Assembly (NCBI GenBank): GCA_023301795.1
Contig: JALZVU010000150.1
Coordinates: forward strand, 1-32,561
Source: Granulosicoccus sp.
GTDB taxonomy: Bacteria; Pseudomonadota; Gammaproteobacteria; Granulosicoccales; Granulosicoccaceae
Direction of reading: 5' to 3'
Length of the DNA: 32,561 nucleotides
Position 1 is the stretch's first letter. Each line of letters begins with the position of its first letter. Shown piece after piece: positions 26,352 through 28,378 of the stretch. A model generated the notes under the pieces. The model saw only the letters and a list, made by a program, of their open reading frames with translations. It was not told the DNA's origin and did not search any database. Made by a program: the position numbers and the translations under genes.

Positions 26352-27224
26352 TTACGCAGCAGCCATCAAGTGTGACTTGATCTTCTTCATTGCTGCCTTC
26401 TCGATCTGACGAATTCGCTCAGCAGACACACCGTACTCGTCCGCCAGCTCATGAAGCGTGGACTTCTGATCTTCGAGCCAGCGACGTTGCAGGATCGCAC
26501 GACTTCTGTCATCAAGAATATCCATTCCTGCCGCCAGACCATCGTGCGAGTTACTACGCCCATCTTCACGTTCCAGAATAATCGACGGATCATCCTGCTC
26601 CTGAAACAACATGTCAGAAGGTGAAAGACTAACCCGGTCTTCGCTGGAACCGACTGGCGCATCAAACGCGCTGTCGTGCCCGTGCATACGGGATTCCATC
26701 TCGACAACCACTTTCTGGTCAACGCCCAGGTCTTCAGCTACCGCTGCAACTTCATCCTGGCTGAACCAGTTGAGCTGCTTCTTGGCGCTGCGCAACTTGA
26801 AAAACAGTTTTCGCTGAGACTTGGTGGTGGCGACTTTCACGATGCGCCAGTTCTTAATGACGAATTCATGGATTTCGGCGCGAATCCAATGGACTGCAAA
26901 TGAGATCAGCCGCACACCGACATCGGGGTCGAAACGCTTGACGGCTTTCATCAGGCCGATGTTGCCTTCTTGAATAAGATCTGCCATTGGCAGACCATAG
27001 CCTTTGTAGGTACGTGCGATATGGACAACGAATCTCAGCTGAGACATAACTAGCTGACGGGCAGCATCGAGATCTTCGTTTTCGCGCAATCGTCTTGCCA
27101 GGCTTTGCTCCTGCTCGACCGTTAGCAGGTCGATGGAGGCAATCTTGGACATATAGCTATTGAGGTCATCTGTGATAACCGGAATAGCCATGGCATTATT
27201 GTTGATGGTCAGGGCATTACTCAT
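26352..27224 (-). CDS. rpoH: RNA polymerase heat-shock sigma factor RpoH (sigma-32)
   Basis: A 290-residue sigma-70 family factor from the ATG at 27224, preceded by GGAGA. It directs polymerase to heat-shock promoters. Region 2 shows LPMADLIQEGNIGLMKAVKR; the diagnostic RpoH box reads QRKLFFKLR (137-145), one residue off the usual QRKLFFNLR; region 4 includes LADEYGVSAERIRQIEKAAM. An in-frame ATG at 27266 would start inside the CIRCE operator and is rejected. It follows ftsY-ftsE-ftsX, the classical gammaproteobacterial order. Upstream, a perfect CIRCE and an overlapping RpoE-like promoter suggest transcriptional control by HrcA and sigma-E. A strong terminator closes the gene. Confidence 0.98.
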   Translation of the reverse strand: MSNALTINNNAMAIPVITDDLNSYMSKIASIDLLTVEQEQSLARRLRENEDLDAARQLVMSQLRFVVHIARTYKGYGLPMADLIQEGNIGLMKAVKRFDPDVGVRLISFAVHWIRAEIHEFVIKNWRIVKVATTKSQRKLFFKLRSAKKQLNWFSQDEVAAVAEDLGVDQKVVVEMESRMHGHDSAFDAPVGSSEDRVSLSPSDMLFQEQDDPSIILEREDGRSNSHDGLAAGMDILDDRSRAILQRRWLEDQKSTLHELADEYGVSAERIRQIEKAAMKKIKSHLMAAA

Positions 27225-27259
27225 AATTTGTATCTCCAACAACCGTCGGGTCAAGTATT

Positions 27260-27286
27260 TTAGCACTCAGCATGTAAGAGTGCTAA
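27260..27286. promoter_or_regulatory. CIRCE operator (HrcA site) upstream of rpoH
   Basis: TTAGCACTC (27260-27268), nine bases, then GAGTGCTAA (27278-27286): an exact match to the CIRCE consensus TTAGCACTC-N9-GAGTGCTAA bound by the heat-shock repressor HrcA. It ends 35 bases before the rpoH start codon and covers the -10 box and probable start point of the promoter at 27275-27302, an ideal place for repression. Confidence 0.93.
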
Positions 27287-27302
27287 TTATCGACTAAGTT
27301 CC
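27275..27302 (-). promoter_or_regulatory. RpoE (sigma-E)-like promoter of rpoH
   Basis: On the minus strand GGAACTT (27302-27296) is followed by 16 bases and TCTTA (27279-27275). The sigma-E consensus is GGAACTT-N15/16-TCTGA or TCAAA, so the -35 box is perfect and the -10 box has one change. E. coli rpoH also has a sigma-E promoter. Transcription would start near 27268, within CIRCE, giving a leader of about 43 bases. Confidence 0.6.
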
Positions 27303-27394
27303 GCCCAAGTTTACCGCTTTCAACGTTAAATAATCGTTACTTGGACAACTAATAATCCTTACGAAAACAACAGTTTGTTGGATTTATGCAAGCT

Positions 27395-28378
27395 TTACTG
27401 TCGATGTGTTAACTGTCGTGACGGTCGGTAAAGACTGCCAATAGCTCCCACCAGTCCAAGGACCACGGACAGGGCTAATACGATCAAAATCTGTGTCAGT
27501 TCAGGCATCTTCAGTGCAAATGTACTTTGGTACAACGAAGACAAGTTATCGGCCGGTTGGCGTATAGCATTGAGCGCGAGTAGCGCTATTGTGCAAGCTA
27601 CTATTCCACCCAGAAATCCATACAATGCGCCGGTATACACAATAGGCCGGTTTACAAACTGCGCGGGTGCGCCGAGCAGGCTCGCTACTTCCATTTCCGC
27701 GCGTCGACGTGATAGCTCCAGGCGTATGGTGTTGCCGATGACGAGGAGGGCGGTGAGTGTCAGAAAGGCCGCTAACAGGCCTCCTACCCATTTCACCAGC
27801 GTCACGAGAGCTTCAAGTCGCCTTACCCACCGCAAATCCAGCTGTACCAGGACCACATCAGGTAGTTCGCGTAAAGATTGAGCCAGAGATTCAATTTGTG
27901 ATGCGTTTACGGCGTCGGTCTGTGGGTACACAATAATCGCACCGGGCAATGGGTTGGCCCCCAGAGCCTCTATGGCGCTGCGAATATCAGTTTGTTCAGC
28001 GAGCATGGCTAACGCCTGTTCGCGTGAGATGTAGTCTGTATCCTCAACACCTGAGCGTGATCGCCAGGCGGTGGCCAGCGACGCACCGTCGATATCGTTG
28101 ACCGTGTCAGCAAGGTAGGCAGTCAGGCTCTCGCCTTGCAGTGATCGTTCACTTAAGTCGGCTAGCAATGTGCTGGCAAAGTACAGAATAAAGGGTAGCG
28201 ATAGTGTGATGCCGAGCACCAGCAATGTGCTTAGACTGGCTAGTTTTCTGGATTTTAACTGCCGAATGCTTTGCGCCAGTGCATAGCCGCGTTTAGTGTA
28301 TGCCCAGCGGGGGCCTTGAACATTCAGCGGAGCAGCTGGCTGGTTTTTGCCGGCTCTGGTTCTCATTTTAGTTGCCAT
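27395..28378 (-). CDS. ftsX: Cell-division protein FtsX
   Basis: A 327-residue inner-membrane partner of FtsE; the FtsEX complex at the division septum regulates peptidoglycan hydrolases. The layout is typical: a cytoplasmic N-terminal tail, first span at about 51-72, a periplasmic domain (about 75-175) with YISREQALAMLAEQ and ALGANPLPGAIIV, then three spans in the C-terminal half with NTIRLELSRRRAEMEVASLL between the second and third. It begins 10 bases after ftsE. A weak stem (27368-27380, CAACA/TGTTG with a short T-run on the minus strand) follows, perhaps a partial terminator before rpoH. Confidence 0.96.
   Translation of the reverse strand: MATKMRTRAGKNQPAAPLNVQGPRWAYTKRGYALAQSIRQLKSRKLASLSTLLVLGITLSLPFILYFASTLLADLSERSLQGESLTAYLADTVNDIDGASLATAWRSRSGVEDTDYISREQALAMLAEQTDIRSAIEALGANPLPGAIIVYPQTDAVNASQIESLAQSLRELPDVVLVQLDLRWVRRLEALVTLVKWVGGLLAAFLTLTALLVIGNTIRLELSRRRAEMEVASLLGAPAQFVNRPIVYTGALYGFLGGIVACTIALLALNAIRQPADNLSSLYQSTFALKMPELTQILIVLALSVVLGLVGAIGSLYRPSRQLTHRQ

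Follow-up and report, generated by a model that had tools for sequence, protein, structure and literature searches.

The rpoH gene of this Granulosicoccus genome is preceded by a perfect CIRCE operator nested in two candidate promoters, one of the sigma-E type and one of the sigma-70 type, and HrcA is quite likely to repress this promoter pair, which would gate the supply of sigma-32 by GroE capacity. The window, i.e. the whole stretch of 32,561 nucleotides analysed here, is one contig of a 5.78 Mb assembly that is 97% complete. The HrcA repressor and sigma-32 are usually described as alternative strategies or parallel regulons. In the arrangement reported here, the repressor site sits on the sigma factor's own promoters, where the envelope-stress and housekeeping sigma factors would also read. 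The nested and widely conserved combination appears to be new; the operator, the promoter types, and the target gene are each already known. A previous sequence-only reading of this DNA had proposed a wiring of rpoH to both sigma-E and HrcA. Comparison among genomes supports this proposal, which appears incomplete with regard to a putative second promoter and to the wider spread of the arrangement.

The features of the rpoH upstream region are compiled in Table 1. CIRCE, TTAGCACTC-N9-GAGTGCTAA, is present with zero mismatches, as had been claimed, and is the sole match in the window at up to three mismatches; 100 shuffles gave no match. Read on the minus strand from 27286 to 27260, the order is TTAGCACTC, TTACATGCT, and GAGTGCTAA, followed by AAT. 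The consensus of sigma-E promoters consists of GGAACTT, a spacing of about 16 nt, and TCnnA. The GGAACTT-N16-TCTTA ahead of rpoH agrees with this rpoHP3-type pattern, and the claimed overlap of its -10 box with CIRCE is seen directly in the sequence.

The predicted second promoter, with the extended -10 TGCTAAAAT, was missed by the sequence-only reading and appears to be more conserved than the sigma-E one. It displays a TGnTATAAT-like motif, for which a -35 element at 16–18 nt is optional, and TTAGCA is located 18 nt upstream. TTAGCA-N18-TAAAAT with TG before the -10 was the sole sigma-70 site revealed in region 27200–27420 by a plain consensus scan (9/12), a scan that is weak by itself because shuffled versions of the region contain 0.4 such sites on average. 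The conservation of TTAGCA is inseparable from that of the CIRCE arm. The operator ends 35 nt before the rpoH ATG at position 27224. The genes upstream of rpoH are ftsX, ftsE, and ftsY; FtsE and FtsY scored above their family cut-offs. One further hexamer, GATAAT at 27286–27291 (minus strand), shares its last base with the start of the left CIRCE arm and occupies the site where groES operators have a TATnAT -10. It could be a third rpoH start in this genome; among rpoH operators in general, the sequence at this site is not conserved.

Table 1. Operator, promoter elements, and genes in the rpoH region of the window.
Feature	Position	Strand	Remarks
CIRCE operator (predicted HrcA site)	27260..27286	-	Exact consensus; N9 spacer TTACATGCT on minus strand
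Sigma-E type -35, GGAACTT	27296..27302	-	Read from sequence; conserved in 95/126 genomes (GAACTT, up to 1 mismatch, 8–10 nt before CIRCE)
Sigma-E type -10, TCTTA	27275..27279	-	TC, last two bases of left CIRCE arm; TTA, spacer
Predicted sigma-E transcript start	27268..27270	-	Inferred from -10 / promoter spacing
Sigma-70 type -35-like hexamer, TTAGCA (4/6)	27281..27286	-	Inside left CIRCE arm
Extended -10 TGCTAAAAT (sigma-70 type)	27257..27265	-	Right CIRCE arm plus AAT
Shine-Dalgarno GGAG of rpoH	27234..27237	-	Read from sequence
rpoH, heat-shock sigma factor, 290 aa	26352..27224	-	TIGR02392, 395.8 bits (cut-off 323.1)
ftsX, gene upstream of rpoH	27395..28378	-	TIGR00439, 251.1 bits, just under cut-off 255

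Both regulators are encoded in the host genome. The search for hrcA, on whose presence the earlier proposal depended, revealed a single full-length gene (TIGR00331, 299.7 bits, cut-off 197.2; positions 1–337 of 338). It was also matched by PF01628, and its DNA-binding domain, PF03444, was barely above cut-off (23 versus 21). The gene order is hrcA, grpE, dnaK, with dnaK identified from its translation. The rpoE-rseA-rseB locus is complete: rpoE was recognized by TIGR02939 (302.4 bits, cut-off 236), with RseA_N and MucB_RseB adjoining.

The sequence-only reading had also named CIRCE ahead of groES and dnaK as a check. Such an operator, with one mismatch, precedes groES, and none was found ahead of hrcA-grpE-dnaK in the genome scan at up to three mismatches. 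The scan yielded three sites, namely the exact one at rpoH, the one at groES, and one with three mismatches. The groES gene was identified from its first codons and the neighbouring fxsA because contig C259 ends within groES, and the Cpn10 family search gave no match in the genome because only these first codons are assembled. The three-mismatch site (G000:C286:847-873, L003) is located before an unrelated, sulfatase-like gene, whose type was read from the translation. It is probably due to chance; three-mismatch matches are at noise level in this genome because the reversed control also matched, with two per strand. Within the assembled sequence, the predicted HrcA regulon comprises groESL and rpoH.

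RpoH was found in 53 of 57 genomes examined (own genome included), and 30 loci were returned, i.e. the window and 29 relatives. Both CIRCE and GAACTT (up to one mismatch) were present in the window and in all 28 relatives with enough upstream sequence; the remaining locus, L034, was too short for this assessment, with only 49 nt ahead of rpoH. The closest RpoH among the matches listed (80 titled loci) was that of an uncultured Granulosicoccus (L115), with 89% identity.

A class sample of 369 genomes contained RpoH in 347 and hrcA in 268 of them. The composite motif GAACTT-N9-CIRCE was detected at up to three mismatches in 188 of the 369 genomes, a number that cannot be equated with rpoH sites because some three-mismatch matches are other CIRCEs (groES and the like); the reversed pattern was found in none among the matches listed. 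The survey of rpoH upstream regions covered the best 150 of the 347 by RpoH score, which is not a random draw. CIRCE (up to four mismatches, within 400 nt upstream of rpoH) was present in 126 of these 150 regions and, when the sequences were reversed, in 0/150. A chance match, already disfavoured by the shuffles, was rejected on this control as well, and the recurrence of the arrangement in many genomes, with its register unchanged, argues against it.

The exact composite was recovered at no fewer than 117 loci, i.e. at least 117, in a scan of approximately 85,000 genomes. It is followed by rpoH at 113 of these loci; one has rpoH on the other side, and three are cut off by the end of the sequence within 250 nt, so that all 114 readable matches flank rpoH. 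The one exception in orientation, L165, has no rpoH in the direction of the pattern; its rpoH flanks the palindrome on the opposite side (tblastn E-value 8e-98). On that side, GCACTT, one mismatch from GAACTT, is located before CIRCE at gap 9. The taxa represented among the matches listed include Rhodocyclaceae, other betaproteobacteria, a Chromatiales bacterium, Methylomonas, Methylovulum, Silanimonas, Arenimonas, Alcanivorax, and Thioalkalivibrio.

Among 269 highly complete genomes sampled from the phylum, 11 had the composite with up to two mismatches. The own class accounted for 9 of 74 genomes (own genome included), and many gammaproteobacteria therefore lack the composite. Other classes of the phylum gave 2/195 matches (G468 and G445), in each of which the two mismatches fall in the -35 hexamer. 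GTDB counts the betaproteobacteria among the Gammaproteobacteria, and there was no sign of the composite outside the class so defined among the sampled genomes. The layout with an HrcA operator in the rpoH promoter thus appears to be common to many gamma- and betaproteobacteria, a wider distribution than the sequence-only reading had stated.

The spacing between the -35 element and the operator is narrowly defined. Exact GAACTT preceded CIRCE at gap 8 in 2, at gap 9 in 48, and at gap 10 in 9 of the 126 CIRCE-containing regions, with two or fewer at any other gap; about 0.1 exact occurrences at gaps 8–10 are expected by arithmetic. Over these three gaps, GAACTT was exact in 59 regions and had one mismatch in 36, two in 11, and three or more in 20. 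The latter 20 of 126 genomes have no recognizable -35, which counts against the proposed nesting. Information content was 0.02–0.20 bits in the columns from the -35 to CIRCE, 0.37–1.13 in the -35, 0.63–1.64 in AAT, and 1.03–2.00 in the CIRCE arms.

Several bases around the palindrome are specific to rpoH. Of the 126 regions, 87 have T at spacer base 1 and 104 have A at spacer base 3; the three bases after the right arm are A (81), A (95), and T (119). Among 27 groES CIRCEs from 30 groES loci, spacer base 3 was A in 4/27 and the final T was present in 3/27; most of these operators have TATnA ahead of the left arm. CIRCE was also found in 20 of 20 further groES regions (one a repeat), most of them with a similar -10 before it. 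Since the spacer A3 and AAT are absent from groES CIRCEs, they are best interpreted as elements of the rpoH promoters and not as part of the site recognized by HrcA. An extended HrcA palindrome was considered as the reason for AAT and rejected: there is no matching conservation ahead of the left arm, at the mirror positions, and groES sites lack AAT.

The two sets of bases behave differently. The spacer A3 was present in 96 of 106 regions with up to two -35 mismatches versus 8 of the 20 regions that had at least three (p = 2e-6), and the corresponding values for the final T of AAT were 101/106 versus 18/20 (p = 0.3). Because A3 tracks the -35 and the final T does not, the sigma-E promoter and the extended -10 would be two separate elements.

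The distribution of the regulators was compared with that of their presumed sites. CIRCE at rpoH was present in 116 of 124 genomes with hrcA versus 10 of 26 without it (Fisher p = 1.6e-9). Since related genomes do not count as independent observations, p-values are only a guide; when each family was represented by a single genome, the association was weak (49/52 versus 5/7). Ten genomes without hrcA retain CIRCE, which counts against the proposed nesting; seven of these ten are under 90% complete, and G129, G110, and G237 are 97–99% complete. Since G129 keeps a perfect groES CIRCE, its hrcA may be absent only from the assembly. Also against the proposal, 8 of 124 hrcA-containing genomes lack CIRCE in the 400 bp upstream of rpoH (G236, G185, G390, G296, G274, G107, G067, and G369); they may represent losses or another type of rpoH control. 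A clear sigma-E motif was identified in only one of the eight, G236.

Taking the 99% level of shuffled regions as the threshold, we detected a sigma-E motif in 9 of 24 regions without CIRCE versus 104 of 126 training regions. Among the former, it was present in 8 of 16 genomes lacking hrcA and in 1 of 8 possessing it. In six genomes without hrcA (G112, G340, G238, G255, G199, and G196), the sigma-E motif is kept and CIRCE is decayed or lost. Three of these (G112, G340, and G238, family f78) display fossil CIRCEs: no hrcA was found, and a damaged operator is readable between intact promoter elements.

The survey for rpoE covered 80 chosen genomes, i.e. 31 with CIRCE and at least two -35 mismatches, 25 of the 95 with CIRCE and a good -35, and 24 without CIRCE. 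At an E-value of 1e-40, rpoE was missing in seven of the 80; five of these seven have CIRCE, and all five are devoid of the -35 and keep TAAAAT or TAGAAT. The gene was missing in 5 of 20 genomes with three or more -35 mismatches versus 0 of 36 with fewer (p = 0.004). In this comparison, closer relatives of the window are over-represented among the genomes with a good -35, and G134, which is among the five rpoE-less genomes, is 73% complete. Taken as a whole, the comparison supports the predicted sigma-E promoter and HrcA operator as functional elements; the binding of HrcA, the occlusion of both promoters, and the gating by GroE are what we infer from them.

Three other explanations have to be weighed. 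HrcA might control the sigma-70 promoter only, with the sigma-E motif being weak or secondary and the triple wiring over-read. Such an explanation would agree with the wider conservation of AAT (T in 119 of 126) than of the -35 (absent from 20 of 126), and with the fact that the five rpoE-less genomes keep CIRCE together with TAAAAT or TAGAAT. We nevertheless consider it unlikely: the -35 of the window is GGAACTT, its 16-nt spacing is that of E. coli rpoH, it is kept in the window and in all 28 judgeable relatives, and the -35 and spacer A3 co-vary. In addition, SigE transcribes a betaproteobacterial rpoH in vitro (PMC3490749).

It is distinctly improbable that CIRCE matters little, i.e. that HrcA may bind and the level of RpoH is set mainly by stability and translation, as in E. 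coli. The operator is near perfect across families while the adjacent bases randomize, and it is decayed or gone in several hrcA-less genomes. E. coli regulates sigma-32 mainly after transcription, and it copes without hrcA or CIRCE at rpoH, both of which favour a minor role. The same is true of the joint rise of rpoH and hrcA reported for nitrogen-starved Xylella (PMC11764788). Mere common descent of the rpoH upstream DNA, with no present function, could also produce a fixed spacing between CIRCE and the promoters, and it fits the observation that every readable composite motif flanks rpoH. Its chance of being correct is extremely small, given the far higher information content in the elements than in the columns between the -35 and CIRCE, and the tendency of cis elements to vanish where their protein is missing. 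Repression of a nested promoter pair by HrcA is therefore the reading that we retain.

HrcA/CIRCE control of groESL employs the same operator, which (with up to four mismatches) was found at 46 of 49 distinct groES loci and at groES in this genome. The target is a chaperone there and a sigma factor gene here. The layout differs as well: most groES sites have a -10 just before the left arm (TATnATTAGC), whereas the rpoH promoters are located inside and just after the operator. As to E. coli, of which the sequence-only reading states that rpoH has a sigma-E promoter and no HrcA, GAACTT-N16-TCTGA was found before rpoH, and no hrcA was present in the E. coli control genome. The rpoHP3 promoter of E. 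coli K-12 is similar to the sigma-E promoter described here, with no CIRCE in the stretch examined.

For Geobacter sulfurreducens, a CIRCE at -51 relative to rpoH and its control by HrcA were predicted (PMC545781, Rodionov 2004). This is a prediction for a single delta-proteobacterium, and the excerpt of PMC545781 mentions neither a sigma-E promoter nor nesting. In Bordetella bronchiseptica, the RpoE-like SigE transcribes the SigE-dependent rpoH (fam) promoter in vitro (PMC3490749, Barchinger 2012); HrcA occurs 0 times in that paper. A 2025 review describes HrcA as the groE repressor, gives the gene order hrcA-grpE-dnaK-dnaJ, and lists an increase of more than 4-fold for hrcA and of 2-fold for rpoH in Xylella under nitrogen starvation (PMC11764788). 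If Xylella has the operator, this co-rise does not fit a simple repression of rpoH in that organism. Full-text searches gave, among the matches listed, no report of a CIRCE nested in the sigma-E promoter of rpoH, and the excerpts of PMC1978210, PMC10490939, and PMC3135505 contained nothing further on such nesting.

In the proposed working, two nested promoters would drive rpoH, the sigma-E promoter GGAACTT-N16-TCTTA and the sigma-70 promoter with its extended -10 TGCTAAAAT. A single CIRCE would cover the core of both, namely the sigma-E -10 and start as well as the sigma-70 -10, all of which lie within or against the operator. Bound at CIRCE, HrcA would block polymerase at both promoters, and active HrcA would repress rpoH and groESL together. 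HrcA would be kept active by GroEL, as in Bacillus. Since the activity of HrcA depends on GroE, a shortage of GroE would raise groESL and rpoH together: misfolded protein would occupy GroE and render HrcA inactive, with groESL going up and rpoH being transcribed from the housekeeping promoter. Envelope stress would add sigma-E-driven rpoH, only as far as HrcA has released the operator, and RpoH would then raise dnaK and the rest. A sharp prediction follows, that a single operator mutation should release both promoters together.

If true, GroE capacity would gate both the general and the envelope-triggered supply of RpoH in many hrcA-bearing gamma- and betaproteobacteria, and the situation in E. 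coli would be derived. We lean slightly towards the view that gamma- and betaproteobacteria ancestrally controlled their heat-shock response through the nested sigma-E/sigma-70/HrcA promoter of rpoH, with HrcA, as a sensor of GroE, placed above sigma-32 and the textbook sigma-32 circuit being derived. E. coli and other species would then have lost hrcA and the operator and kept naked promoters.

Transcription from both proposed promoters would begin inside or after the operator, so that CIRCE would function in the DNA, as an operator, rather than as a hairpin in the mRNA. A 71-nt transcript folds with z = -3.7, and a role of CIRCE as an mRNA hairpin is possible only for transcripts that start further upstream. 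No support was obtained for a conserved hairpin or an RNA thermosensor in the leader of rpoH: in 29 leaders (the window and 28 relatives), one of them reduced to 5 nt by the start-codon rule, the mean folding z was -0.17, with four values below -1. The 50-nt rpoH leader of the window gave z = -0.88. Two leaders, L016 and L017, possess a 6-bp hairpin directly before the Shine-Dalgarno sequence, with one paired base change between the two species; this hairpin is absent in other relatives.

Variants of the operator were observed at rpoH in 16 genomes (G189, G299, G394, G215, G047, G307, G367, G157, G173, G099, G376, G336, G257, G355, G175, and G166). Their left arm contains GCAGTC or their right arm GACTGC, and sometimes both changes are present. 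The groES site was compared in three genomes with a changed arm: G047 has the left-arm GCAGTC there too, and G099 and G124 are without their change at groES. These variant operators may possibly be tuned weaker sites or, in the family of G047, may reflect a shifted specificity of HrcA.
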